The notes under the pieces: generated by a model | The model's input: only the letters and a program-made list of their open reading frames with translations | What the model was told of the DNA's origin: nothing | The model's database searches: none | Virus record (IMG/VR): IMGVR_UViG_3300044841_000145 | Location: 1 to 51,228 of that record | Source: a virus | Length of the DNA: 51,228 nt | Direction: 5' to 3' (one strand) | Made by a program: the position numbers and the translations under genes | Part shown: one piece after another, positions 328 through 51,228 of the stretch | How positions within the stretch are numbered: the first letter of the stretch is position 1 | How the letters are laid out: every line of letters starts with the position of its first letter

Positions 328-3300
328 CCGCACCAGCTGTGGAGGCGGTCGACCCGGCCGTCGAGATCGCCGACGAGACCGCGGGGGAGCTGCGTGTCCG
401 CTTCCCCGTCCTCGTCATCGAAGGCATGCCAACCAGCGACGGCCGCCTGATCGAGCCGGGCGCGCTCACCCCGCGGGCTCTGCCGCTGTCGCTGCTCGCG
501 CAGGCCGAGGCGTCACACGGCGGTGACGACCCCGGTCCGGCCGTGGTGATCGGCCGGCTGGACAGCATGGAGCGCCGACCCGGCCCCGAGGTCACCTCGC
601 GCCGGACGGGCGAGCCGTTCCCCGAGGGCACCTTCGTGTGGTCCGCCGAAGGCGTGATCGACGCCAACCATCCCGTCGCCGATCTCGTGCGCCGCGGCTT
701 CCTTCGCGGTGTGTCCGTCGACCTGGCCGGCATGGACTACGAGATCGTCGGGGACGACGGGGCGCCGATGGCCGACGGGGACTGGGGCTCGGGCGGGCGG
801 CTCATCACGCACGCGGCTGAGTTGGCCGCGGCCACCCTGGTCCCCGTTCCTGCGTTCGGGGACGCGTACGGCGAGCTCGCCGACGATCCCGAGCCGCTCG
901 TGCCTGTTGCACCGGAGGACCTGCCCGAAGGCCTGCTCGCGTCCGCTGTGCCGGCCTGGCGTTCACCGGAGGTCGGTGACCTGGTCGCAGTCGTCGCGGC
1001 CGCGACAAGCGGAAGTTACGTCGAGCAGATGCGCGACCGGATCGTCGAGGTGCTCGGCGCCGACGAGATCGAGGGTTGGGGTGAGAACGCCGAGCGCCTG
1101 CTGGACCTCTACACGCTGCTCGCGCTCACGCGCGGCGCAGACGTCACCCCGGAGGACGCCCACGACGTCTGGTCTGTCGCGATCTCGCGCACCGACCCCA
1201 CCCATCGGTCCCTCATCCCGTTCGATGAGCTTGCGCCCGACGTGCAGGCCATGGATGACAAGTACCGCGACGCGATCGTGACCGCGGCTACCGCGCCGGG
1301 GGAGGGCGGGGCAGCGATCACCGCCGCCGCCGACGAGGGCATGCCCGTCCGCATCCCCCCGGATTCCGTGGAGCAGCTCACCGCCGTGATCGACACCGGC
1401 GCGGAGCGGGACGCCACCGACCTGGCCACGGCGATCGTCGAGCACATCGCGCAGCAGTGGGCGCTCGACGAGCCGGTCACGGAGGACGAGCTGCCTGCTG
1501 ATGAGGCTGTGGTGGCCGCGGCGAGCGAGGAGCAGGGCGGCTTCCCCGAGGACCCGCAGCCGTGCTCGGTCGGCGACGAGCCTGCCGTGGAATCCATCGT
1601 GTTCAGGGATGGATCGGCGTATGCGGCAGTCTGTGCGGAGCATCGCCAGCAGGTGCTTGATGAGCTGGCTGCGGCGGGCGAGGTCGTGGACGAGATCGTG
1701 CCCATCGGGGCGGCCGAGGAAGGGGCGCCGGTTGAGCCGGTCGTCGCTGCCGCCGGCGAGCCGCACACCGGCGGGATGATCGCCCTCATCCCAGCCGACC
1801 CCAGTGCGCTCGTCGTGGACGGCGGGGACCCGGCGGAGGACCTGCACCTGACGCTGGCCTACCTGGGCGACGACGTCACCGGCATGGACGAGGAGGTCCG
1901 GGCTGCTCTACTGGCTGACGTCGAGGCGCAGGCCGCCACGCTTCCGCCCGTCGAGGCGGAGGTGATGGGGCACGCCGCGTTCAACCCGACCGGCGCGAAC
2001 GACCGGGAGCCGTGCGCCGTGTACCTCGTGTCGGGGCCGGGCCTGCCGGACGTGAAGGCCGCGTTTGCCGCGCACGACGTGGGGGACCACCCGGTCTTTT
2101 TGCCGCACATCACCGCGGCGTATGGACTTGAGCCGAGCGCGCTCAACTTCGTGGGCCCCGTGGTGTTCGACCGGTTCCGTGTCGCCCTGGGCGAGGACGT
2201 CCACGACTTCCCGCTCGGTGCGCCGGCCGAGGTCGAGGACGAGCCAGCCGCGCAGCCGGACGAGATCGTCGCCGCCGTCAGTGCCACACCCGTCAGCCTG
2301 GATCCCGCCCGGCCGACACTCGACCAGGAGACCTCCGTGACCGCAGCCGCCGCCGTCCGTCCACCCGCAGACTGGTTCACCGACCCGCAGCTCGACGGGC
2401 CCACCGCGCTCCGCGTCACCGAGGACGGCCGCGTCTACGGCCACGCGGCACTGTGGGACACGGTGCACATCGGGCAGCCCAACGCCCGCATCCGCCCGCC
2501 CCGTTCGACCACCGGGTACGCGTACTACCGGACCGGCGCGGTGCTGTGCGACGACGGCAGCGAGGTGGCTGTCGGGCCGATCACCATCGACTGCGGCCAC
2601 GCTGGCACCGACCTCGGACGGATGGCGACAGTCCGCCACTACGACGACGTCGGGACCGCGGTCGCGGATGCAGCGGTCGGGGAGGACGAGCACGGCATAT
2701 GGGTGGCCGGCGCGCTCCGGGCGACCGTTGACGAGGTGACGGCGGCCCGGCTGAGAGCCTCCTCGCTGAGTGGGGACTGGCGCCGAGTCGGGTCGTCGCT
2801 CGAACTGTGCGCCCTCCTGGCCGTCAACGTGCCCGGGTTCCCCATCCCACGCGCGCGGGTGGCGTCAGGCGAGCCGATGGCGCTCGTCGCGGCCGGTGCG
2901 CTCCGCCCGGAGGAGACGCCTGAGTCTGCCGGGACGGCGACGTTCGACTACGACACGCTCGCCGAGGCGCTCGCGTCGAGGCTGGACGCCCGCCGCGAGG
3001 CCGGCGAACTCTCCGCCCGTCACGCCGCCCTCGTGTCCGAACTGGACGACACCCCGGCGGTCGTGGCCGCTCTCCTCGCGGAGGTGGATGACTCGCCGCA
3101 CCGCGCGGCTGAGCTGTTCGCCGAGCTCGACAACGAGTCCTTCCTGTCCGGGATGCCGCCCCAGCTCAAGGCTGAGTGGCTGGCCGGGGCGATCGCGGCT
3201 CGGATCGCTTACGGGACCCCAGGCCAATTCGAGCGGTGCCAGGCCATCGCACGGGAGAAGGGCGCCCCGGGGCAGCAAATCGACGGGATGTGCGCCGATC

Positions 3301-3794: not shown

Positions 3795-4505
3795 ATGAGG
3801 CTCTACGCCTATTTGCGCGTTTCATCCGCAGGGCAGATCGACGCATGGGGTCTCGACCGACAGGAAGCCGCGATCCGGCAGTACGCCAAGACTGGTGGGC
3901 ACCGCATCGCGGCGTGGTACCGCGACGAAGGCGTCAGTGGAACCATCGAAGCGCTCGACCGACCGCAACTGTCGGCCGCCATCCGCGACCTGCGGCCAGG
4001 CATCGACGGGATCTTGGTTGCAGACCTAGATCGTTTCGCCCGCTCGCTCACTGTCCAGGAGGCCGCGCTCGCCGTCATCTGGCGCGCGGGCGGCAAGGTC
4101 TTCACTGCGACGAGCGGCGAGGTCCACACCGACGACCCGGATGACCCCGGCAGAACGCTCATTCGTCAGGTGATGGGCGCGGTCATCGAGTTCGAGAAGC
4201 GCCAAGCTGTCAAGCGCATGCGCGGCGGGATGCTCGCCAAGGCGGCCACCGGCCGTAAGGCGACCGGCTCCTACGCGTTCGGCTACCGCGGCGAGGGCAA
4301 GGGCCGCGAACGCGACGCCAAGCCCGACCCGGAGGAGCAGCCGACCATCCGCGCCATCCTCGACCTGCGCGCCGCTGGCGCCTCCTACCGTGAGATCTGC
4401 GACGCCCTCAACCTCGCAGGTCACCGCACCAAGCGCGGGGGCGACTGGTCCCCCATGACCGTCAAGCGGATCCACGACCGCGAGACCGGCCAGGTGACGG
4501 CGTGA
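3795..4505 (+). CDS. Small serine recombinase (resolvase/invertase type)
   Basis: 236 residues. The N-terminal resolvase domain begins MRLYAYLRVSS with Ser10 the likely nucleophile, followed by GLDRQ, a DRPQL segment, and the LDRFARS motif that supplies conserved Arg residues. Residues about 170-230 contain a helix-turn-helix (GASYREICDALN ... WSPMTVKRI). Its length is that of a resolvase, not of a large phage serine integrase (over 450 residues), so site-specific resolution or inversion is more likely than classic integration. It lies between capsid protease and capsid genes, an unusual place, and overlaps the nuclease gene downstream by GTGA. No clear res site was found around it. Confidence 0.85.
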   Translation: MRLYAYLRVSSAGQIDAWGLDRQEAAIRQYAKTGGHRIAAWYRDEGVSGTIEALDRPQLSAAIRDLRPGIDGILVADLDRFARSLTVQEAALAVIWRAGGKVFTATSGEVHTDDPDDPGRTLIRQVMGAVIEFEKRQAVKRMRGGMLAKAATGRKATGSYAFGYRGEGKGRERDAKPDPEEQPTIRAILDLRAAGASYREICDALNLAGHRTKRGGDWSPMTVKRIHDRETGQVTA

Positions 4506-21968: not shown

Positions 21969-24893
21969 GTGGCGGTCATCGACCTGGGCGGCGTCCCCAA
22001 CCCGCCGTACCCGAGCGAGACGCTCTTCCCGGACACGACCCTGTTCCCGGACCAGCCAGAGGGCGGCATCCCCGCCCCGCCGGTGGGGACTCCGCGGGTG
22101 GTGCCGATCATCCGGCCGTCCGGGATCGCGGCGCCCGGGGTGGGCATCCCGACGCTGGAGTCGGCGATCCGTCCGCCGCTACGCGTGGACTTCTGGGCAG
22201 TCGACGACGACGGCTCGCTCCTGTGCCCGCTCCCGCACGTCGTGTCGTGGGACCTGTCGATGGTGCCGGGCGAGGCCGGGGCGGTGACGCTCGAATATCC
22301 GGTCGACGGCATCAACTACGACGCGCTCGTGGAGCGAGTGACCGCGGCCCGGGACCTGTTCATTCGGATCCGCACGGACGGCACGCACGATCGCAGCCTC
22401 GGCGCGCTGCTCTACGCCTCGGACGGCGACGAGGTTGCCGAGGGCGCCACGCGCACCTTCTACGGCCGGTTCCTGACCGGCCTGCTCGCCGAGGCGCCGC
22501 TGCCGTACAACCAGTCCGGCCTCGACGGGGAGTGGGGCTGGGCCGACGCGACGGCCGGCGACATCCTGCACGCAGTCCTCACGATCCTGCAGACCGACGG
22601 CTACCTCGCCGGGTTCACATGGACGTTCACCGGGGACCACGACTCCAACGGGATCGCCTGGGCATCCCAGACCAGCCCTCGCTTCCCTCCCGGCCGCACC
22701 GCGCTCGAGGTGGCGCAGCAGCTGCGCGAGTGGGGGATGCTTGAGTTCGAGGTCGCCGCCGACCTGGAGATCCGGGCGTTCGAGCCGACCGCGGTGGGCA
22801 CGGACCACACCGCGAACGACCCGCCGATGGTGTTCCGCGCCGGCCGCGACCTGTCCGAGGCTCCCCGCCGCACGGACGTGTCGGCCGCCGCCACGACGCT
22901 GATGATCGCCGGGGCCGACGGGGTCTACGTCGAGGTGGAGGACCCGACGGCCGTTGCGACGCGCGGCCGGAAGATCGGGCAGTTCCTGAGCGAGGGCAAC
23001 CTCGCCTCCTCCGTCGCTGCTCTCGCCTACGGCAACCTTGAGCTGCCGCGGCGGGTGACGGGCACCGACGAGCGCACCCGCGCGCTCACCTTCGACCAGG
23101 ACCAGCCCGTCCCGCTCCGCGAGCTCATGCCGCTGGACTGGGTGTACGACGACACCGGGTCAGGCCTGCGCCGCGAGCGCATCGCGCAGATCACCGTGTC
23201 GCAGTCGCAGGGCGAGGACCGCTACTCCGGCGGCATCGTCCTCGGCGACCTCATCAACAGCCGCGACGTCGCCATCCAGCGCCAACTCTCCGGCCTGGCG
23301 GCCGGGCAGATCATCACCGGGGCCTCGACCCCCTCACCCTCGGTCGACGACGGGAAGGCTCCGGGGCAGGTCGTCGGGCTCGCCGTCGCCTCCGCGCCGT
23401 ACCCGGATCAGGACCGCACCGCCGCGATCGTCACCGCCACCTGGGTCAACGTCACCGAAAACGCCGACGGGACCCCGATGGGGGACCTGTCGCACTTCGA
23501 GCCGCAGTTCCGGTACTCGGGCGGGCTGCCGGGACTCCCGACGGCGTGGATCCCCGCGCCGCCGGTGCTCGGGCTGACCGCCACCTGGGACGGGGTCGTC
23601 GCCGGCACGCCCATCAGCGTCAGGGTCCGCGCGGTCGACCAGTTCGGCCGGGCCGGGGCCTGGGCCACCGAGGTAGGACACGTCACGCAGGACGACGCCA
23701 CACCGCCTCCGACCCCGTCCGACCCGGTCGCCGCGTCCTACCTGGGGATCTTCACCGTCACCTGGGACGGCCTCGGCTCGGCGGGCGAGGTGCAGCCGCC
23801 GGACTTCTCACACGTCGAGGTCCACGCCAGCCTCTCCGCAGCGTTCGTCCCCGATCGGCCGCTGAACCCCGACGGCACGCTGAACACCGACCTCTCGACG
23901 ACCTACATCGACAGGCTGACGGGCGCCGGGACGATGCCGTCCACGATCGGCGAGTACGGGCAGACGTGGTTCGCGCGGCTAGTCTCGGTCGACAAGTCCC
24001 ACAACGCCTCTGCCGCGTCGGTCGTCGACTCCGCCACGCTCGTGGAGGTCGGCGACGGGGACATCGCCTCCGTCAGCATCGGCAAGCTGACCGCCGGGAT
24101 CATGAACGCGCTCATGACGGTGTCCGGGATCATCCGGACGGCCACCTCCGGAGCCAGGGTCGAGCTCGACACGGCCGGGTTCCGCTGCTACTCCAGTACC
24201 GGCGCGGTGCTGCTCAACTTCTCGATCCCCACGAGCCTGCTGTCGATCGTCGGGCGCCTCACCGCAGGGGCCGGCATCGGATCCGGGTCCACGGTCGTGA
24301 TCGAGCCAGGGCCCCCACCGTCGATCTCGCTCTATCCGAACGCCACCGCCGAGCGGTACCGCATGTTCTCGCTGCCATTCCCCCTGCCGACCGGCGGCAC
24401 CGGCCCGGCGTTCGGGCTCGAGCGGATCAACACCGGTGGGGTTTCATCCGGCCCGTCGCTCTTCGCCTGGGACGTAGGGGTGCTGCTCGGGCACAAAACG
24501 TCTGCAGGCACCTACACCACGACCGGCGGCGGTGTGCAGCTCTACGCCGCCAGTACGGGCTTCGGCGCCTACCTCGCCGCCGATGACGGCTGGCTACAGG
24601 TGGAGAACAATGGCAGGTTTCGGCTGCAAGGCCGCTTCGCCGCCGGTGACGCCGGCTCCGGTGGGGCGGGTGCCCTCTTCATGGGGTTCGCGAACGTGAC
24701 CAGCGCCAACTCTGGGATCAACTTCGCCTACGGGGGCACGATGGCCGACGCGCGAGTCATCCTGCATTCGTGGCAGGGCGGGAACACGTATACCTATCTG
24801 TCGGCCGTGTCAGCAACTGGCTTCACGATTCTCAAAGGAAACACCGCCGACTCCGGTTGGATTCACTACGCCTCGTTCGGGACGGACATCTGA
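21969..24893 (+). CDS. Baseplate hub / tail-associated fibre protein (large minor tail protein)
   Basis: 974 residues, GTG start. Residues about 75-450 resemble the hub-type minor tail protein of actinophages (VDFWAVDDDGSLLCPLPHVV, FYGRFLTGLLAEAPLPYNQ, GDILHAVLTILQTDGYLAGF, ALEVAQQLREWGMLEFEV). Residues about 465-680 look like two fibronectin-type III-like domains (APGQVVGLAVASAP, TPISVRVRAVDQFGRAGAW, TVTWDGLGSAGE). The C-terminal 270 residues (GDGDIASVSIGKLTAGIMNA ...) form a fibre-like beta domain. It would link the tail tip to receptor recognition. Confidence 0.75.
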   Translation: MAVIDLGGVPNPPYPSETLFPDTTLFPDQPEGGIPAPPVGTPRVVPIIRPSGIAAPGVGIPTLESAIRPPLRVDFWAVDDDGSLLCPLPHVVSWDLSMVPGEAGAVTLEYPVDGINYDALVERVTAARDLFIRIRTDGTHDRSLGALLYASDGDEVAEGATRTFYGRFLTGLLAEAPLPYNQSGLDGEWGWADATAGDILHAVLTILQTDGYLAGFTWTFTGDHDSNGIAWASQTSPRFPPGRTALEVAQQLREWGMLEFEVAADLEIRAFEPTAVGTDHTANDPPMVFRAGRDLSEAPRRTDVSAAATTLMIAGADGVYVEVEDPTAVATRGRKIGQFLSEGNLASSVAALAYGNLELPRRVTGTDERTRALTFDQDQPVPLRELMPLDWVYDDTGSGLRRERIAQITVSQSQGEDRYSGGIVLGDLINSRDVAIQRQLSGLAAGQIITGASTPSPSVDDGKAPGQVVGLAVASAPYPDQDRTAAIVTATWVNVTENADGTPMGDLSHFEPQFRYSGGLPGLPTAWIPAPPVLGLTATWDGVVAGTPISVRVRAVDQFGRAGAWATEVGHVTQDDATPPPTPSDPVAASYLGIFTVTWDGLGSAGEVQPPDFSHVEVHASLSAAFVPDRPLNPDGTLNTDLSTTYIDRLTGAGTMPSTIGEYGQTWFARLVSVDKSHNASAASVVDSATLVEVGDGDIASVSIGKLTAGIMNALMTVSGIIRTATSGARVELDTAGFRCYSSTGAVLLNFSIPTSLLSIVGRLTAGAGIGSGSTVVIEPGPPPSISLYPNATAERYRMFSLPFPLPTGGTGPAFGLERINTGGVSSGPSLFAWDVGVLLGHKTSAGTYTTTGGGVQLYAASTGFGAYLAADDGWLQVENNGRFRLQGRFAAGDAGSGGAGALFMGFANVTSANSGINFAYGGTMADARVILHSWQGGNTYTYLSAVSATGFTILKGNTADSGWIHYASFGTDI

Positions 24894-43707: not shown

Positions 43708-43743
43708 TAGGACGGAACGTCCTAGTAGGACACCACGTCCTAC
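43708..43743. promoter_or_regulatory. Tandem operator dyads
   Basis: Two adjoining dyads: TAGGACGgaaCGTCCTA (43708-43724) and GTAGGACaccacGTCCTAC (43725-43743), sharing the half-site TAGGAC. They sit between the XRE regulator's stop and the reverse cluster, overlapping where its -35 would lie. The XRE protein next door is the obvious candidate ligand. Confidence 0.7.
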
Positions 43744-44945
43744 CCCTGCTCGACCAGTCCAGTGTGCCGCGCCAGCTCCACCAGCCGCGGCTGCTGCGAC
43801 GCCCGCTCCCGAAGCTCCCGCACGATCTGCCTGGTCTGCCGCTGCACCTGCAGCCACTCCGGCGCCGCCGACTTGATCCGCATCAACACATCCGTCGCCT
43901 CACCATCATGGCCCAGACGGGTGTGCGCCAGCGCCGTGTCCGCCATGTGCCGGGCACGGGCAGCCAACGGCAACGACATCCGCTCCGGCATGCCGCCTGC
44001 CGCGTCCAATGCCTGCGTGTACCGCTCCGTCACCACCTCGACGTCCACCGTCTGCATCAGCACCTGATCCGGCCCGAACGCCACCTGGTAGTCGTTCCGG
44101 TGGCCCGTCCGGCCGGCAGCCTCCTCCGCCTCGCCCAGCAGCACCCCGGCCGTCGCCCGGTCCTGGGCGCGCCCGGCCGCTGTTGCCCCCGACAGCAGCA
44201 GTGACCCGTACAGCGCCCACGCCGGCAACGGCGATCCACCTGACGGCGCCACTCCGGCAGCCGCGGCCGTCGCTACCTTGTGCGACTCCACGAAGCGGCC
44301 CTGACTGAGCAGCAGCCACGCCATCGTCCCCCGAAACGCCAGCGGCCGCAGCTCGTCATCGCCGTGCTCCGCGAGGGCGAGCGCCTCCCGTAACGCCAGG
44401 TGCGCGCTGTCGATGTGGCCCAGGTGCACCAGCGTGCATGCCGCGATCTGCCACACCTCCGCCGCCACGTCATGCGCGGCCGCCGACTCGGCAGCCGGCA
44501 CAGCCCGGACCATCGCGCGGGCCTGCCCCAGCGCGGCCGGCAGGATCGTCGGCAACTCGTCGTGCGTCCGCCCAGCCCAGTACGCCGCCCACCCGTACTC
44601 CACCGTCCGGCGCGCCTCCGCCACCGTCAGCGGCTCCACGTCCGGGTCCTCGCCGATCAGATCGTCCACCGCGGTGAGAGCCCGCCGCAACGCCAACGAC
44701 CCCGCATGCGCGTTCGGGCGCCGCACCGGCCGCGGCCTCGTCAACAAATCGCCCGTGTCCACGTCCAGAGCGCGGGCGATCGCATGCAAGCTGGGGATCG
44801 ACAGACTGTGCCGGCGCCCCTGCTCGAGCTTGCGGATCAGGTCCGGTGAAACGCCGGCGGCCGCGGCCAGCTCGGTCTGGGAGAACCGCGCGTGGCGCAG
44901 CCGCTTGATGTTGTCGCCGATGGACGGTCCAGTAGCATCAGGCAT
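43740..44945 (-). CDS. XRE-family regulator with TPR-like C-terminal domain
   Basis: 401 residues, ATG with GGAG eight bases upstream. Residues about 9-65 form an XRE helix-turn-helix (IKRLRHARFSQTELAAAAGV, SPDLIRKLEQGRRHSLSIPS). Residues about 100-390 are helical repeats of TPR type (AHDVAAEVWQIAACTLVHLG ... HLALREALALAEHGDDE). Such regulators are common in actinobacteria; in phage and ICE contexts they control lysogeny or transfer. Operator dyads overlap its 3' end and suggest repression of the neighbouring operon. Confidence 0.85.
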   Translation of the reverse strand: MPDATGPSIGDNIKRLRHARFSQTELAAAAGVSPDLIRKLEQGRRHSLSIPSLHAIARALDVDTGDLLTRPRPVRRPNAHAGSLALRRALTAVDDLIGEDPDVEPLTVAEARRTVEYGWAAYWAGRTHDELPTILPAALGQARAMVRAVPAAESAAAHDVAAEVWQIAACTLVHLGHIDSAHLALREALALAEHGDDELRPLAFRGTMAWLLLSQGRFVESHKVATAAAAGVAPSGGSPLPAWALYGSLLLSGATAAGRAQDRATAGVLLGEAEEAAGRTGHRNDYQVAFGPDQVLMQTVDVEVVTERYTQALDAAGGMPERMSLPLAARARHMADTALAHTRLGHDGEATDVLMRIKSAAPEWLQVQRQTRQIVRELRERASQQPRLVELARHTGLVEQG

Positions 44946-44970
44946 GTCCGAGTCTCCGCTCTCGGGCGAA

Positions 44971-45001
44971 GCCCCCGTGGACGCTGCAACGTCACGGGGG
45001 C
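44971..45001 (-). terminator. Hairpin downstream of the serine recombinase
   Basis: Stem GCCCCCGTG (44971-44979) with CACGGGGGC (44993-45001), loop of 13 bases, between the recombinase stop (45089) and the XRE start (44945). It would separate the two transcripts; a T-rich side favours the plus direction, so it may work both ways. Confidence 0.55.
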
Positions 45002-45088
45002 AATTTCATGCCTACGGTACCCGCGCGGTTGCGGACCCCTACTGATCCACGACCGAGCACGCGGGCACGTCGGGCAGCGGCGGGTACG

Positions 45089-45775
45089 TCACGAGGTCGA
45101 CTCCGTGGCGTCTCGGCGGGAAAGCACGGCGGCGACGCTGGACGCGTACCAGCGGTTGCCGCCTTGGGCTGTAGGGACGCCCTGCTCGTCGAGTAGGGCG
45201 GCGATCTCGCGCAGGCTCGCTCCCGCCTCGCGCTCCTCCACGATGGTCGCCACAACATCCGGAGGAGTGCGGTCCGGGCGTCCGAGCACGGCCCCCTGCG
45301 CCTTTTTTGCCTGGAGTGCCTCGGAGGTGCGCTGCCCAATGAGCCGCTTCTCGAAGCGGGCGAAGGCCGCCATGACATTCGCCATGACCTCGCCGCTCGG
45401 GGTTGAGGTGTCCACACCGAGGTCGCAGGCGACGAGCGCCCATCCGTCGCGGATGGCTCGCTCCAGCAGCATGGCTGCGTCTGCGGCGCTGCGGGAGAGG
45501 CGGTCGAGCTTCGCGACGATGAGCCCACTGGCCTTGCCACGTTCGATCGCCGTGAGGGCAGCAACGAGCCCTGGCCGTTCCTCGATGGCCAGCCCACCGG
45601 AAATCCCGGGATCGACATACTCGCCGACGATGCGCCACCTACGCCGGCCGCACTCGGTCGCAACCTTCGCCCGTTGAGCCTCGATGCCTAGGCCGCTGCT
45701 GGCCTGCTCCTCGGTCGAGACGCGGAGATAGGACACGAAGGTGCCGGGCTCTGCACGTCGTCGCCGGGTCGCCAT
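45089..45775 (-). CDS. Second small serine recombinase
   Basis: 228 residues. VSYLRVSTEEQ places Ser20 as nucleophile; GLGIEAQRAKV, DPGISGG, KLDRLSRSAAD and MANVMAAFARFEKRLIGQRT are the standard resolvase motifs. The last 50 residues hold an HTH (GASLREIAALLDEQGVPTAQ, WYASSVAAVL). It probably acts as resolvase or integrase for the element; it is shorter than a large serine integrase. A possible leaderless promoter (TGTACA, 18 bases, TACGGT at 45787-45782) lies six bases before the ATG. Confidence 0.85.
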   Translation of the reverse strand: MATRRRRAEPGTFVSYLRVSTEEQASSGLGIEAQRAKVATECGRRRWRIVGEYVDPGISGGLAIEERPGLVAALTAIERGKASGLIVAKLDRLSRSAADAAMLLERAIRDGWALVACDLGVDTSTPSGEVMANVMAAFARFEKRLIGQRTSEALQAKKAQGAVLGRPDRTPPDVVATIVEEREAGASLREIAALLDEQGVPTAQGGNRWYASSVAAVLSRRDATESTS

Positions 45776-45781
45776 CTCGCA

Positions 45782-45811
45782 ACCGTACAGCTAACGACCG
45801 ACTGGTGTACA
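45782..45811 (-). promoter_or_regulatory. Probable promoter with partial dyad before the recombinase
   Basis: TGTACA (45811-45806) and TACGGT (45787-45782) 18 bases apart, six bases from the ATG. GTACAG and CTGGTGTAC (45785-45790, 45802-45810) form a weak inverted repeat, possibly a recombinase binding site. Confidence 0.4.
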
Positions 45812-45860
45812 AAATCACGGACTAGGCATCGGCGAGATGCTGCGTCGCGTCGCCAGGCGA

Positions 45861-45887
45861 GAGTTAGGCCAAGATCATCGAGTTAGG
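45861..45887 (+). repeat. Direct repeat GAGTTAGG
   Basis: Copies at 45861-45868 and 45880-45887, 19 bases apart start to start, with an inverted GGTTAGG at 46028-46022. They lie in the 255-base non-coding region that holds hairpins but no gene, next to the recombinase, so this could be a crossover, origin or stability locus. Confidence 0.35.
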
Positions 45888-45937
45888 TTTCTCACCCCTG
45901 CCCCGGCGCCCGCCACACAGCCTCTGACCTGCGGAAA

Positions 45938-46000
45938 GTGAGCCAGTTACCCCGCTTACGGCTCACCCCCGACCCGGACTGGAGGGCCCGAATCGGGGGT
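45938..46000 (-). terminator. Hairpins downstream of the FtsK/TraB gene
   Basis: Stem ACCCCCGA (45965-45972) with TCGGGGGT (45993-46000) and a second stem GTGAGCC (45938-45944) with GGCTCAC (45960-45966). The arms overlap at 45965-45966, so they may be alternative. They are 31-93 bases beyond the FtsK stop in the direction of transcription. Confidence 0.55.
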
Positions 46001-46030
46001 GTTGAGCAGTGCTGCAGGGCCTAACCCGGC

Positions 46031-48196
46031 TCACTCATCGTCGAGGTCAGCCGTCGCCAGGCGTGCCAGAGCGGCTCTTACGTCCCCCGGGTCCAGCAGG
46101 TTCTTGTTCCCCGTCCGGGCCACCCGGACCCCGTACTGGTCCTCCAGCCGCGTCTTCAGCTTCTCCCCGTTCAGCACCCGGTACGGCGTCCAGTCCGGCG
46201 CCAGATCGCGCAGCAGTGCAGGCGCATCCGCGATCTTCACCCGCTCCGATCCGAGCACCACATCCAGGTCCTCGAGCAGGTTCCTAGGCGGCTGCCCCGC
46301 GCCCGACACCGCCGGCCGCTCCCCACCGGGCAGTCCCTTCCCGCGGCGGGCGATGGCCTCCAACGACCGGTCGATGAGCGGCGTGACCTGGTCGTTCCCC
46401 TCGTCGACCGACAGGAAGTACCACTGCAGGATCTCGGAGCGCTGCCCGCTGAACCCCTTCACCACGGCCGTGCCTCGGTCGGTGCCGGGGATCAGCTCCG
46501 TTGCCCGGTGCCCGGACCGGTAGGCGCCCTGACCCAGCAGCGCATCGTTGGCCACGTGGTCGCCCACGGCGAACGCGATGCCGTTGGAGCAGTTCCGGGT
46601 CACGTCGCGCGGCATCGAGTCCTTCGTCGGCGCCTGGGTGGAGACGATCAGGTGGATCCCCCGCTTCCGGCCCAGCTTCACGATGTCGATGAGCAGCTGG
46701 GAGATCTCCGCGCCGAACTCCTTGTGCTGGATCGCGACGTGCGCCTCCTCGAGCAGCGCGAAGATCGGGTGCATTCCAATGTTTCGGTTGGACAGCTCGC
46801 GCGTCACGGACGCCACCTCGAACTGGACGAGCTTCTCCCCGCGCACCTGAATCTCGGCGTGCAGCTCCCGCAGGTCCTCCAGAATCTCGGCGATCCTCTC
46901 GTCCTCGGCTCCCATCACGTACCGCGAGCAGCGGGGCCGGAACACCTCGAAGTCGAAGTTGCTGTCCGGCACCCAGATGCGCAGCTCAGCCGTCGGATCG
47001 AGCGCGGCGCCGATCATCAGCACTCGCGCCGCCGACGACTTGCCCTGGTCGGGCATCCCTCCGGTGATCGTGTTTCGTCCGATCAGCGGCGCGGACATCG
47101 GTGTCCCGCGCAGGGTCTTACCTGCAGGAACCCCCTTGAACACGTCGATCGCGCCGCCTTCGAGCAGCGGGTACGGCCCGGCACCCTCCGCGAGTGCCCC
47201 CTTGTCGGCCACCCATAGGTCGAGGATCCCGGCCTCGGCGCCCGTGGTGGGCCACACCTCCTTGGAGAGCCGGTACAGGCCCGTGGCCAGGTCAGCGCGG
47301 CGGCGCGCGATCTTCTCCGCGGTTACGCCGCTGGGTAGCCGGATCACCGCGTGAGTGCCGCGGCCATCTGTCCGCGCTGGCGTCAGGAACTGCAGCTTCG
47401 ATCCGGCCTTGAAGTAGACGGTGATCTGCGGGATCCGCAGCGCTGCCAGGGCCGCGGCGATTGTCGTCTCGTCGATCGTGACGTCGACGTCCGCGTCGGC
47501 CGCGGTGACCAGCCATGCCGGCGGCTTGCCACGTCGCTTGCCCTCGCGCCACGCCGCCAGGATGACCAGCGCGGGGAGCGCCATGAGCAGCGGCACCCAC
47601 GCCGCGGTAGCGACAGCGAGGCACCACGCAACCAGTGCGATCGCCCCACCGATCACCCCGACGAACGATCCGACGCCGGTGATCTGGGACAGGATCCCGA
47701 TGACGAGCACCACTGCGAACAGCCCGGCCATGGCGCCCAGCAGCACCTTGACCAGCCCCCATGCCAGCTTCGGGGCGTCCATGAGCGATTGGTGGCGGGA
47801 CGTGCGCGCCTTCTCGTACCGCTCGGCCCAGGCCGCGAGTCCCTCGCGGTCGCCCGCCATCTCGGCGGCGGTGAGAGCACGGCGGTAGACGCCCATCGTG
47901 GAGGCGTCCCACGCCCGCTTCGCCCAGCTCTCGAAGCCTTGGATGACGGTGAGACTGGTGGCCAAGGTGGTCCGCGCGGTCTGTTTGGTGCGGTCGTGGG
48001 TGGCGACGGTGCGGACGGTCGAGATGACGTGCACGTTCCGCCAGCGGCGGATCGCGCTCGGCGGCGTCGGGACCAGCGTCAACGCGGGCCGCCGCGGCTC
48101 GTCGTCGACGATCTCACCATCGAACACGGCCGCCTCGACGTCCCCGTCCGGGCGGACGTCGAGTTCGGCACGCCGCTCTTCGGGCTGTTCGCTCAC
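46031..48196 (-). CDS. FtsK/TraB-like conjugative DNA translocase
   Basis: 721 residues from a GTG overlapping the upstream stop. Two membrane segments at about 146-170 and 178-215 (VKVLLGAMAGLFAVVLVIGI, VGVIGGAIALVAWCLAVATA) precede the ATPase: Walker A MPDQGKSS with Lys386, Walker B IFALLEEAH ending at His486, and GIHLIVSTQAP. The C-terminal part (WTPYRVLNGEKLKTRLEDQ) looks like a winged-helix DNA-binding region. TraB-type FtsK relatives of actinomycete plasmids move double-stranded DNA between hyphae by recognising 8-bp repeats. A phage-encoded FtsK-like translocase is the alternative; the Spd-like neighbours favour transfer. Confidence 0.8.
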   Translation of the reverse strand: MSEQPEERRAELDVRPDGDVEAAVFDGEIVDDEPRRPALTLVPTPPSAIRRWRNVHVISTVRTVATHDRTKQTARTTLATSLTVIQGFESWAKRAWDASTMGVYRRALTAAEMAGDREGLAAWAERYEKARTSRHQSLMDAPKLAWGLVKVLLGAMAGLFAVVLVIGILSQITGVGSFVGVIGGAIALVAWCLAVATAAWVPLLMALPALVILAAWREGKRRGKPPAWLVTAADADVDVTIDETTIAAALAALRIPQITVYFKAGSKLQFLTPARTDGRGTHAVIRLPSGVTAEKIARRRADLATGLYRLSKEVWPTTGAEAGILDLWVADKGALAEGAGPYPLLEGGAIDVFKGVPAGKTLRGTPMSAPLIGRNTITGGMPDQGKSSAARVLMIGAALDPTAELRIWVPDSNFDFEVFRPRCSRYVMGAEDERIAEILEDLRELHAEIQVRGEKLVQFEVASVTRELSNRNIGMHPIFALLEEAHVAIQHKEFGAEISQLLIDIVKLGRKRGIHLIVSTQAPTKDSMPRDVTRNCSNGIAFAVGDHVANDALLGQGAYRSGHRATELIPGTDRGTAVVKGFSGQRSEILQWYFLSVDEGNDQVTPLIDRSLEAIARRGKGLPGGERPAVSGAGQPPRNLLEDLDVVLGSERVKIADAPALLRDLAPDWTPYRVLNGEKLKTRLEDQYGVRVARTGNKNLLDPGDVRAALARLATADLDDE

Positions 48197-48363
48197 TTCT
48201 TCTTCCGCTTCTTGCGCTTCGTCGGGGTGAGGATGAGCACGAGCCGGCCCTTCTTGTCCTTCATGAAGATGCCGCCGACCAGCGTCTTTGTCGGTTTCGC
48301 CAGTGCGATGCCGAGCAGCACGGCGATCACGGCGGCCAGGGCGAGCGCAGCTCCGGCGTCCAT
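48193..48363 (-). CDS. Small membrane protein of the transfer block
   Basis: 56 residues, ATG at 48363, overlapping genes on both sides. One transmembrane helix (GAALALAAVIAVLLGIALA) and a basic tail ending in KRKKRKKK. Tiny membrane proteins of this kind accompany TraB-like genes in actinomycete elements. Confidence 0.6.
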   Translation of the reverse strand: MDAGAALALAAVIAVLLGIALAKPTKTLVGGIFMKDKKGRLVLILTPTKRKKRKKK

Positions 48364-48632
48364 CAGGCCGCCCGCCTGTCCTTGCCGCGGCGGCGGCGCC
48401 TGTCGCTGAGCGAGACCACATCGGCAGGCAGAAACACGGGCGGGGGGACTGGCTTCGCCCGGCGGGAGAGGTGGGCGCCCAGCCAGGCGACAGCGTCCAT
48501 GTCACCGAGGAGCCACCCGGCCAGCGCCACGGCGAACGGGGTCTGCGAGAGCGCCCACTCGACGCCGGGCGGGGCGAACAGGACCCACCCAGCCCACGCC
48601 ATCAGCGCAGGGATGGCGAGTTGCAGAATCAT
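48363..48632 (-). CDS. Small membrane protein, paralogue of 48784-49056
   Basis: 89 residues. Begins MILQLAIPALMAWAGWVLFA and has AVALAGWLLGDM; the end is basic (RRRRRGKDRR). The first 50 residues align with MIALAVPALMALTGWTWLA ... AAMVAGWLLD in the neighbouring gene, so a duplication is likely. Two hydrophobic helices. Spd-like spread or assembly function is inferred from context. Confidence 0.65.
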   Translation of the reverse strand: MILQLAIPALMAWAGWVLFAPPGVEWALSQTPFAVALAGWLLGDMDAVAWLGAHLSRRAKPVPPPVFLPADVVSLSDRRRRRGKDRRAA

Positions 48633-48787
48633 CGGGCACCCGCTTTCTCCAGGTCACGCAAGCGCGTCCACGCGGCATGCGCGCACAGGGCTAGCCAGAT
48701 CACGGAGGCGACGGGGTCGTCCGCCCGAAGCACGAACGGGGCGGCGGCGACAACCACGAGGGCGCGCAAGTCCTGCGTCAGGTTCAC
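48629..48787 (-). CDS. Small membrane protein between the two paralogues
   Basis: 52 residues from GTG at 48787, overlapping genes on both sides. Two short hydrophobic helices (ALVVVAAAPFVLRADDPVAS, VIWLALCAHAAW). No homology to neighbours seen. Confidence 0.5.
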   Translation of the reverse strand: MNLTQDLRALVVVAAAPFVLRADDPVASVIWLALCAHAAWTRLRDLEKAGAR

Positions 48788-49056
48788 GCCACCCGCCCTG
48801 CCGTCTCACGGGCCCGCCACGCGGCCATCGTCGACACATCCGCCGCGCGCATGACCACCACGACCGCCGGGCGGCGGAACACCGGCTGCCGTGCGGCCGG
48901 GCGGTCGGACCGGACGACAGCGGGCGGCCTGTCGAGCAGCCAGCCGGCCACCATGGCTGCCATCGGTAGCTGCAGCAGCAGCCACGGCAACGTGAACGGA
49001 GCCAGCCACGTCCACCCCGTCAATGCCATCAGGGCAGGAACGGCGAGCGCGATCAT
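48784..49056 (-). CDS. Small membrane protein, paralogue of 48363-48632
   Basis: 90 residues from the ATG at 49056 (a longer frame upstream runs into the SpdB2-like gene). MIALAVPALMALTGWTWLA, then PWLLLQLPMAAMVAGWLLD; the end has MRAADVSTMAAWRARETAG. Overlaps the SpdB2-like gene by 4 bases. Confidence 0.65.
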   Translation of the reverse strand: MIALAVPALMALTGWTWLAPFTLPWLLLQLPMAAMVAGWLLDRPPAVVRSDRPAARQPVFRRPAVVVVMRAADVSTMAAWRARETAGRVA

Positions 49057-50174
49057 CGGACACTCCTGAGTCGCTTCGGCACGGTCACCTGACCGCGCAG
49101 ACGGTCCGCCCGAGTCGCCCCGATGGACCAGTGGTCGATGACCGCTTTCCGACCGGGCACCCTGCGGGCACGGGTGGTCTCCGCGCGGATCCATTCGAGG
49201 ACTTCGTCATCGGTCACCGGAACGGGCGACTGGACCGGCTCGGCGTTGTGTTCGGGCTGGTCAGACCGGTCGCCGGCGGGCGCCACGGCGGTCGGCTCTC
49301 CGGGCATTTCGACCGGCTCGACGACCGCGGTCCCCCGGTCCACGTGGACCGGCATGCCGGGCGTCTCATCGGTCACCACGTCGGTCACCGGACCGGACAT
49401 CTGGACCGGCGCCGTGACCGGCTGAGCCGGTCCACGCTGGACCGCCTCGGTGGTCACGAAGTCGGTCACCCTGGCGGGCTTGGCTGCGGGCATGTGGACC
49501 GGTCCACCGGCGGTCATCTGGACCGGCTCGGGGGCCACTTCATGGACCGCCGCGAAGGCGGTCTGCGCGACTAGGTCGGCGACCGTCGCCCGGTCCGGTG
49601 CCCGCTCTGCCCGCTCCTTCTCCGCGTGCTCGGCGAGCGCCCGGTGGACCGCCTCGGTGAGCCTGTCCCGGAGGCCCGGCCCGGTCTCGGCGGCAGCGAA
49701 CACAGCCAGCGGCGGAACCGAGTGCAGCACCACGCCGGCCCAGGAAAGCGGTGCGCCCGCGAGCCCCCAGGACGGCCAGGTGTTCATCGTGTAGGTGGCG
49801 AGGAATGTCAGCCACTTGGTCCGACGAGCCCACGCCGGCAGCTCGATCTGGTATCGGGCGGTGATCTGCTCGGCGCGCAGCACTGCGATCAGCACGAGCG
49901 ACACCATCGGGTCGAGCAGCCACGCGGCCCACCACCCGAGGGAGTAAGGCTCCAGGCCGGTCGCGGCGAATGTCTGGACGTTGACCATGGTGAAGGCCAG
50001 CCCGAGTCCGATGCCCGTCCACAGCAGTGCGTCGACCTGGCTGCGGACCTTCTCGACGCGCAGCGCGATCACGTCCGGGTGCGTGGTGAGCGCGCGGATC
50101 TGCGCAGCGTCTGCCGCCTCCGCGGCGAGGCGCTCTACTCTCCCGCTCGAGGGCGCGGCCGGCTGGCTCGTCAC
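49053..50174 (-). CDS. SpdB2/DUF2637-like membrane protein with repeat linker and C-terminal HTH
   Basis: 373 residues from GTG at 50174. Residues about 45-175 hold four hydrophobic helices (LLWTGIGLGLAFTMVNVQTF, AAWLLDPMVSLVLIAVL, WLTFLATYTMNTWPSWG, GVVLHSVPPLAVFAAAE). A linker of about 110 residues has repeated PV[QHE]M units; the end is an HTH-like segment (DDEVLEWIRAETTRARRVPG ... IGATRADRLRGQV). This layout fits SpdB2-type spread proteins of Streptomyces plasmids, which have four helices and a DNA-binding C-terminus and assist TraB. The DNA for the linker carries the 8-bp repeats. DUF2637 is the alternative name. Confidence 0.7.
   Translation of the reverse strand: MTSQPAAPSSGRVERLAAEAADAAQIRALTTHPDVIALRVEKVRSQVDALLWTGIGLGLAFTMVNVQTFAATGLEPYSLGWWAAWLLDPMVSLVLIAVLRAEQITARYQIELPAWARRTKWLTFLATYTMNTWPSWGLAGAPLSWAGVVLHSVPPLAVFAAAETGPGLRDRLTEAVHRALAEHAEKERAERAPDRATVADLVAQTAFAAVHEVAPEPVQMTAGGPVHMPAAKPARVTDFVTTEAVQRGPAQPVTAPVQMSGPVTDVVTDETPGMPVHVDRGTAVVEPVEMPGEPTAVAPAGDRSDQPEHNAEPVQSPVPVTDDEVLEWIRAETTRARRVPGRKAVIDHWSIGATRADRLRGQVTVPKRLRSVR
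49231..49526. repeat. Cluster of eight TGGACCGG repeats (candidate clt-like site)
   Basis: Exact TGGACCGG or its complement at 49231, 49335, 49345, 49402, 49427, 49495, 49499 and 49519. An 18-bp perfect palindrome joins two of them (49335-49352) and a 12-bp one spans 49495-49506. Near-copies (TGGACCGC, CGGACCGG, CAGACCGG) also occur. In Streptomyces, TraB binds 8-bp direct repeats of similar sequence in clt. The repeats encode the PVQM/PVHM linker, so coding selection is an alternative. Confidence 0.6.
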
Positions 50175-50175
50175 T

Positions 50176-50337
50176 TCACCAGCCCCCAGCCAGCGCCCAG
50201 TCGTCACGCGTCCCGAGGTCGACGGGCTTCGCCGGCGTCTGGGGCACCTCAACGACAGCCGCGGTTTGGTGGCTCGGGCGTCGGAGCACGGCGACCACGA
50301 CCAGCAGCAGGTACAGGGCGATGCGCTGCATCTTCAT
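50176..50337 (-). CDS. Small membrane or secreted protein
   Basis: 53 residues, ATG at 50337. N-terminal hydrophobic helix (RIALYLLLVVVAVL) and polar tail. It overlaps the upstream gene by 4 bases and ends one base before the SpdB2-like start. Confidence 0.5.
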   Translation of the reverse strand: MKMQRIALYLLLVVVAVLRRPSHQTAAVVEVPQTPAKPVDLGTRDDWALAGGW

Positions 50338-50594
50338 CTCCACCCCTCTGGGGCTTTGGTCCTCCGGCGCTGCCGCCACGGCAGCTGCCCGTAGTCGACG
50401 CGGCCCTGGATCCGCCCGATCTCGTCGGGGTCGAACACCACACCGCGGAACTGCTTGCGCAGCTGGTCGCGCTCGTCCTCGCTCATCACCACCACCGCTG
50501 ATGCCCACGCAGGCGACTGGGCCGGTGCTGGCCCCTGCGTGGCCTCGCTCGCCACCACCTGCTCAGACGGGACAGAAGGCACACCGGCCATCAC
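50334..50594 (-). CDS. Small hypothetical protein
   Basis: 86 residues, GTG (or ATG at 50591) overlapping the upstream stop. Ala/Pro-rich start, then VVMSEDERDQLRKQFRGVVF and a basic tail. Function unknown. Confidence 0.45.
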   Translation of the reverse strand: MMAGVPSVPSEQVVASEATQGPAPAQSPAWASAVVVMSEDERDQLRKQFRGVVFDPDEIGRIQGRVDYGQLPWRQRRRTKAPEGWR

Positions 50595-50761
50595 CGCTCA
50601 CCTCGTCGGCGTTCCGGCTGCCGGGTGAGGAACGCCGGCAGGCGCCGCAGCTTGAACCCGCCCTGCTCCGTCCACCCCGACGAGGCGAGGCGGCGAAGGG
50701 ACAGGCCGAGGCGGGACGCTGGGCGGTCGTAGCGGGGGCCTCGGGTGCGACGGACGTTCAT
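50591..50761 (-). CDS. Arg-rich mini protein
   Basis: 56 residues, ATG at 50761. Strongly basic (MNVRRTRGPRYDRPASRLGL ... RRRGER), plausible nucleic-acid binding. Overlaps with both neighbours support it. Confidence 0.45.
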   Translation of the reverse strand: MNVRRTRGPRYDRPASRLGLSLRRLASSGWTEQGGFKLRRLPAFLTRQPERRRGER

Positions 50762-50889
50762 CGCCGACCGCCCTTCCGCTCGTCACCGTCGCGGCGACGT
50801 TCAGTGGGCGTCTTGCTCGCCCCGTGGCTGGCGCAGAACACTCCGACAGCCGGATTCGAGCAGCCAGCCGCGCCGCATGTTGCAGCCAT
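50758..50889 (-). CDS. Tiny Cys-containing protein
   Basis: 43 residues, ATG at 50889. MAATCGAAGCSNPAVGVFCA followed by SHG gives a Cys3-His pattern, then a basic tail. Zinc binding likely; function unknown. Confidence 0.4.
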   Translation of the reverse strand: MAATCGAAGCSNPAVGVFCASHGASKTPTERRRDGDERKGGRR

Positions 50890-50891
50890 GG

Positions 50892-51071
50892 TCAGGACCT
50901 CCAGAGCAGGGACGCCGGGACAGGCCCCGAGTCTGGGGTGATGACGACCGGCCGGACACCGGCGTCGACATGGGTGCCGGCCACGGCGGGCCGGGTGACC
51001 AGCGGGGTACCGACGCAGAGCGCGAGCAGCCCGACGAGCACCGCGGCGGCAGCAAGCTGGAGGCGGGTCAT
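50892..51071 (-). CDS. Small membrane-anchored protein
   Basis: 59 residues from the ATG at 51071. Signal-like helix LQLAAAAVLVGLLALCVGTP followed by a polar part. An ATG four codons upstream is in frame but lies within the upstream gene. Confidence 0.45.
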   Translation of the reverse strand: MTRLQLAAAAVLVGLLALCVGTPLVTRPAVAGTHVDAGVRPVVITPDSGPVPASLLWRS

Positions 51072-51228
51072 TTGCTGAACCACTTCTTGCGCTGCGCCGA
51101 CGGCCGCAGATCCACCTGCCGGGCACTGGTGTGCTTTCCGCCGCCAGTCACGTAGCCGGTGCCGACCCGCTGCGATGTCTTGTTGCCGTGCGAGCAGGCC
51201 GAGCAGAACCCGCGCTCCTTGCCGCTGT
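51068..51228 (-). CDS. Start-truncated Cys-rich protein at the window edge (partial)
   Basis: The last 52 residues of a reverse gene whose start lies beyond the window. FCSACSHGNK gives a CxxC pair, the remainder is basic (SAQRKKWFSK). It probably starts the same transfer operon, judging by orientation and overlap. Confidence 0.45.
   Translation of the reverse strand, partial: SGKERGFCSACSHGNKTSQRVGTGYVTGGGKHTSARQVDLRPSAQRKKWFSK

Follow-up and report, generated by a model that had tools for sequence, protein, structure and literature searches.

Near the right end of a virus contig, a gene in the transfer module of an actinobacterial mobile element carries a compact cluster of 8-bp repeats, which raises the question of whether the repeats are recognition sites and, if so, which protein reads them. 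The initial annotation proposed a clt-like cluster read by the neighboring FtsK/TraB-like translocase. The window analyzed here is the whole stretch of 51,228 nucleotides (record IMGVR_UViG_3300044841_000145). Its first 36 kb contain tailed-phage genes (head protease/portal, major head protein, tape measure, tail fibre, endolysin), and its right end (43740–51228) is an AICE-like module composed of an HTH-TPR regulator (43740–44945), a serine recombinase, an FtsK-like translocase and an SpdB2-like gene. A second serine-recombinase gene lies at 3795–4505, within the phage head-gene cluster. The contig may represent one phage that carries a transfer module, or two elements lying side by side; no tRNA was found in the 51-kb window.

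Repeat Array and Its Host Gene

The word TGGACCGG occurs at 49231(+), 49335(−), 49345(+), 49402(+), 49427(−), 49495(+), 49499(−) and 49519(+), i.e., eight copies in 296 bp (49231–49526), in both orientations and three reading-frame classes. These copies form a compact cluster of short repeats of the kind expected of clt/TRS loci. Dinucleotide shuffles predict 4.5 copies per window, or about 0.026 per 296 bp, close to the initial rough estimate of about 0.03; the initial copy number and the 18-bp perfect palindrome at 49335–49352 (CCGGTCCACGTGGACCGG) were likewise recovered. Another perfect palindrome, absent from the initial annotation, is the 12-bp TGGACCGGTCCA (49495–49506) with its 10-bp core GGACCGGTCC. 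The whole-element count suggested there adds just two copies elsewhere in the window (5090 and 8817), and the cluster is the densest of all 8-mer clusters in the window.

The array is located in the SpdB2-like gene (about 49053–50174, minus strand, GTG start, 373 aa), which was delimited by its open reading frame and translation, an AlphaFold2 model and homologues. The encoded protein consists of N-terminal membrane helices, a disordered linker and a C-terminal HTH. The membrane-helix domain (residues 33–191; 49602–50078, minus strand), defined by tblastn, alignment and the model helices, is about 70% identical to those of L015, L016, L022 and L017. The linker (residues 209–320; 49215–49550, minus strand; pLDDT < 50 at residues 211–317) carries the array in its codons, and the disorder predicted by the model coincides exactly with the array-encoding stretch. 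The HTH (residues 320–362; 49089–49217, minus strand), the proposed reader of the array, appears as three short helices modeled with moderate confidence only (pLDDT 49–79); the alignment for the model contained 7 sequences, and its mean pLDDT is 55. The array lies 36–324 bp upstream of the HTH codons.

The initial placement of the repeats, within an SpdB2-like gene next to one of FtsK/TraB type, is supported. In many elements, homologues of the SpdB2-like gene sit directly upstream of ftsK. Here too, a predicted membrane protein with long N-terminal helices is encoded directly beside the translocase gene. The designation "SpdB2-like" denotes an apparent likeness to pSVH1 SpdB2 by position and predicted layout. 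No DUF2637 match was obtained for the window protein, but its HTH does recur in a DUF2637 protein of locus L299. Used as a query against viral contigs, the window protein gave no matches.

Codons and Repeats

In the coding sense, five TGGACCGG copies are read as CCG GTC CAx (PV[QH]) in a single frame. The other three have the opposite orientation and are distributed over two further frames, in which they specify GGP, RGPA and HVDR; two of these three contain GGA, a rare codon that makes up 6% of Gly codons. Two null models were applied, each with 20,000 trials: synonymous codons were shuffled within the gene, or codons were drawn from window usage. With the protein held fixed, synonymous shuffles averaged about 2 copies, with a maximum of 6, and eight copies were reached in 0/20,000 trials; the limit of six holds for both nulls. 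Eight copies of any 8-mer were obtained in 0/4,000 trials, and a further run over the whole gene (1,000 shuffles) reached seven copies at most. Since eight copies exceed what synonymous shuffling yields, and some copies are off-frame, part of the repetition belongs to the DNA level. These tests support the view that the TGGACCGG repeats are kept at the DNA level and look like protein-recognition sites. Among 516 genes tested, the strongest DNA-level signals were those of the window gene and of the L034 gene, where CCGGTCGC is found nine times in both orientations and all frames.

FtsK/TraB-Like Translocase and Its Downstream Element

The FtsK/TraB-like DNA translocase is encoded at 46031–48205 (minus strand; the start codon is uncertain, the ORF being open to 48505). 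Its identity is indicated by phrog_1358 (FtsK/SpoIIIE-like, 5.6e-24) and by FtsK chains in the PDB (E 0.001), with a weak match to PF01580 below the Pfam cut-off, so that an FtsK/SpoIIIE motor domain is recognizable by similarity at 46031–48205. Relatives of the protein are 52–67% identical to it. Its C-terminus is a predicted winged-helix domain of "alpha" type (46040–46279, minus strand), assigned by AlphaFold2 and by alpha/beta typing; the model has pLDDT mostly above 90 and the order H-H-H-E-E-H. The closest PDB folds, with a best Z of 6.4, are winged helices of generic type; FtsK gamma is not among the listed fold matches, which does not in itself exclude that subtype.

Directly downstream of ftsK lies a non-coding element (45855–46030, minus strand) that carries CTAAC/GTTAG repeats, GAGTTAGAAACCTAACCCG and TTTCCGCAGGTCA; it is strongly conserved in the alignment of about 45 loci and covaries with the FtsK C-domain type. 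An Rfam scan around the module yielded only chance-level matches, far below gathering scores. The clt of pWTY27 was mapped experimentally to the traA 3′ end and the 159 bp that follow it (PMC3583192). Because the CTAAC element occupies this position and covaries with the FtsK C-domain, it is a better clt candidate than the array, and a strong candidate for the clt of the window's FtsK family.

DNA-Reading Domains and Sites in Relatives

FtsK homologues were collected from viral contigs, genomes and wider loci, giving 150 distinct loci, the window included; no phage record was among the matches to the FtsK query. A frame-aware synonymous test was run on 744 genes of the collected loci with a threshold of p ≤ 0.02. 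An excess at this threshold was found in 9/161 genes directly upstream of ftsK, in 0/224 other upstream genes and in 2/211 downstream genes, while the ftsK genes themselves showed a weaker excess (6/148), mostly at the 3′ end. The leading genes were those of L034 (nine CCGGTCGC), the window and L070 (seven ACCTGGCG). Enrichment of 8-mers per HTH cluster was dropped, since it mixes homologous positions with independent sites, and a frame-aware palindrome test was used instead.

The FtsK C-domains were typed with two HMMs into alpha (75 loci) and beta (67 loci). Two or more CTAAC-type repeats were present in the 330 bp that follow ftsK in 67/75 alpha loci versus 0/67 beta loci, and the 3′ end of ftsK had three or more CAGGGA in 33/67 beta loci versus 0/75 alpha loci. 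For distant motors alone, the CTAAC element accompanied the alpha C-domain in 16/16 cases versus 0/39 (3e-14); three CTAAC motifs occurred in 0/3,060 background windows. L147 and L070 combine a distant FtsK motor with an alpha-type C-domain, a natural domain swap in which the CTAAC element follows the C-domain. The window has the alpha-type C-domain together with the CTAAC element. CAGGGA repeats at the ftsK 3′ ends of beta-type loci are seen, e.g., in L111, L113, L075, L140 and L108, and are likely the clt of these loci.

The search region for the palindrome GTTCRYGAAC began 100 bp before the Spd gene and extended 700 bp into ftsK. The palindrome is found in 45/64 loci with Spd HTH class 0 (motif PAWVRxVTGCSRG) versus 2/82 others (p = 6e-20). 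It ranked first of 256 palindromes of that form, the runner-up reaching 0.003. Within genes there are 49 sites versus a synonymous mean of 7.8 (maximum 14); they encode FMN/FTN or VHE/VRE in two frames and mostly lie 87–259 bp before the HTH codons. The link to the HTH class holds within each FtsK group (7/9 vs. 1/35; 34/48 vs. 1/47), and the exact palindrome is missing from 19/64 class-0 loci. GTTCATGAAC is a candidate target word for the class-0 Spd HTH. Another word, ACCTGGCG, is present seven times in the genes of L024, L147 and L070 only, with at most two copies in the other 143 genes. L024 and L147 have a common HTH distinct from class 0, and that of L070 was seen by eye in a shifted frame; an apparent frameshift in the L070 gene upstream of ftsK puts its HTH out of frame with the remainder of the called ORF. 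The FtsK proteins beside the three ACCTGGCG genes are 37–64% identical to that of the window.

Five changes of C-domain type were counted on the motor-domain tree; in three supported independent pairs the CTAAC element agrees 2.8 times on average and never opposes. The HTH class changes 13 times, with eight supported pairs, of which GTTCRYGAAC agrees in 4.3 on average and practically never opposes; in the remaining pairs it does not differ, and the sign test gives a median p of 0.125. Cross-controls are flat (HTH vs. CTAAC, 0.7/0.7; C-domain vs. GTTCRYGAAC, 0/0). The independent events are too few for a significant sign test, and the case depends on three lines of evidence taken jointly: the double dissociation, the reading frames of the words and the rank of the palindrome. 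Since the ftsK 3′ site follows the C-domain and the in-gene words follow the Spd HTH, two site systems can be distinguished, each tied to its own DNA-reading domain.

Arrays of a further kind lie 2.5–3 kb after ftsK. In L028 (10768–10996), AGTGACAG is repeated eight times inside a gene downstream of ftsK, and similar 8-mer arrays are present in L010, L033 and L097; these are probably replication iterons.

Window Module and Its Closest Relatives

The window Spd protein has the membrane domain of L015, L016 and L022 but another HTH, which represents a natural domain swap. GTTCRYGAAC does not occur in the window module (its sole copy in the window is at 24686), and TGGACCGG is found there instead. 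The half-site differs by a single base, GAACCGG in L015 versus GGACCGG in the window. No TGGACCGG cluster was found in any relative, including those with 52–68% identical FtsK.

The nearest relative of the window HTH is the C-terminus of the L299 protein (52% identity over 54 aa). That protein is a DUF2637 protein whose membrane domain differs, and the adjoining FtsK is only about 30% identical to that of the window. It has CGGACCGGTCCA just before its HTH codons. GGACCGGTCC occurs in only 2/146 genes directly upstream of ftsK and in the HTH gene of L299; it was found four times in 1.26 Mb, and about 0.004 copies are expected for a gene of the size of that in L299. It is absent from the more distant HTH relatives L300–L302 and L304. 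A GGACCGGTCC copy in L303 was not counted, being inside an unrelated metabolic gene.

Reading of the Array

The initial observation is confirmed, and the best reading of the TGGACCGG array is that it comprises sites bound by the C-terminal HTH of the SpdB2-like protein encoded there; for TGGACCGG itself, the odds are about even (roughly 0.5). The protein sequence does not explain the array and, in the loci compared, the in-gene words of relatives track the Spd HTH and the downstream element tracks the FtsK C-domain. From these patterns we infer that the HTH binds the words, that such binding would extend to TGGACCGG and that the protein could act as a tether. A membrane-bound, probably oligomeric Spd protein would bind its own element at several inverted and direct sites, and the bound DNA, next to the transfer genes, would be held at the membrane. 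The FtsK/TraB-like pump would separately recognize the CTAAC element downstream of ftsK and move double-stranded DNA. A swap of the HTH would bring with it a change of the in-gene words.

Several points weigh against recognition by the protein's own HTH. For TGGACCGG, covariation is represented by one relative (L299) with one site, and other HTH relatives lack the TGGACCGG palindrome. The covariation of word and HTH may also be mimicked by common descent of linker and HTH, because both are in one gene. In addition, pSVH1 SpdB2 bound DNA non-specifically (PMC4170104).

The array could instead comprise sites of another DNA-binding protein, either a tra-operon repressor or a replication initiator with in-gene iterons, which is rather unlikely. 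The phage contig L231 (IMGVR_UViG_3300015250_000001) has eight TGGACCGG copies (3076–3185) in an HTH_36-like gene, in all frames, resembling the iterons of initiator genes; TGGACCGGTCCA palindromes also occur in the unrelated contigs L276 and L216, some GTTCRYGAAC sites take an operator position 32 bp before the Spd gene start, and the HTH-TPR regulator at 43740–44945 is available as a repressor candidate. Against this, L231 has nothing homologous to the HTH, Spd or FtsK of the window, and the words follow the Spd HTH in relatives. The window, which stops 1 kb past the Spd gene, yielded no replication initiator. An exact scan of viral contigs for paired TGGACCGG returned mostly chance matches, and the clusters in L231, L276, L216, L245 and L257 were set aside as lying in unrelated genes or intergenic regions.

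Repetition could also arise at the protein level or by mutation, through a Pro-Val linker of PV[QH]M/E[PA]V units written in preferred codons. Five copies correspond to PV[QH] written with the most frequent codons, CCG GTC, and the Spd linker contains recurrent E[PA]V[QHE] units. This explanation, raised in the initial annotation, is improbable in view of the three copies in other frames and orientation, the fixed-protein shuffles and the differing linker sequences of homologues. Retention of the linker residues in other codons had been named there as evidence against a DNA-level signal. Taken literally, this is found, since L015 and L016 keep the linker PVH with GTTCAC, not GTCCAC; but the new codons form a different palindrome.

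It is quite improbable that the array functions as a clt whose recognition by the C-terminal domain of FtsK/TraB initiates DNA transfer: the 8-bp repeats adjoin the FtsK/TraB gene, 8-bp repeats are read by Streptomyces TraB (PMC4170104, PMC12857230) and the confident winged helix would fit, but in the window and its relatives, distant motors included, this domain tracks the ftsK 3′ site, not the array, and similar FtsK proteins occur without the cluster. Of the initial interpretation, the DNA-level recognition-like cluster in an SpdB2-like gene stands, and FtsK/TraB as its reader does not.

Comparison with Known Systems and Implications

The closest precedent for recognition by the Spd protein's own HTH is sps of SpdA/SpdA2 (pIJ101, pJV1; PMC4170104), where a Spd-type protein has short palindromes repeated in its own coding region; SpdA2 of pIJ101 binds a palindrome within its own gene (PMC4170104), and an in-gene self-site in a Spd gene is therefore already a known kind. 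Correspondingly, the palindromes lie in the window gene, and the words track the HTH in relatives. However, the sps palindrome is a single 12-bp sequence that is conserved from plasmid to plasmid and resides in the gene of a small protein, whereas the words described here vary from one element to another, go with the HTH class and are held by codons that specify the linker of a membrane protein.

pSVH1 SpdB2, reported to interact with TraB in plasmid spreading (PMC4170104), is a membrane protein from the same kind of transfer cluster. The window protein is a putative counterpart and, in contrast to the non-specific binding reported for pSVH1 SpdB2 (PMC4170104), sequence-specific arrays are predicted here. 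As in clt/TRS of TraB plasmids (pSVH1, pJV1, pWTY27), short repeats occur near a translocase gene; unlike the clt of pWTY27 at the traA 3′ end and downstream (PMC3583192), the array is not the likely counterpart, which is the CTAAC element at 45855–46030. A literature search made largely without subscription journals found no description of site arrays within genes of SpdB2-like proteins, nor of a clt belonging to the window's FtsK family.

The O gene of phage lambda contains the origin iterons inside the gene of the DNA-binding protein itself. The window array is similarly written inside the gene of its putative DNA-binding protein; the lambda protein is a soluble initiator, whereas the window protein is a predicted membrane partner of a DNA pump.

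It is tentatively proposed, at somewhat less than even odds, that SpdB2-like membrane proteins from conjugative elements of actinobacteria are sequence-specific DNA tethers with their own word arrayed in the linker codons, array and HTH being swapped together. With the same reserve, a transferable element would have two independent tags, an in-gene array for the tether and an ftsK 3′ clt for the pump. The pairings of the alpha C-domain with CTAAC, the beta C-domain with CAGGGA, and the Spd HTH classes with GTTCRYGAAC, ACCTGGCG or TGGACCGG are testable. If this is true, the transfer specificity of AICE-type elements would be readable from sequence, SpdB2-like proteins would be specific rather than non-specific DNA binders, and their genes would be a clear case of codons doubling as a disordered linker and as the protein's own binding sites.
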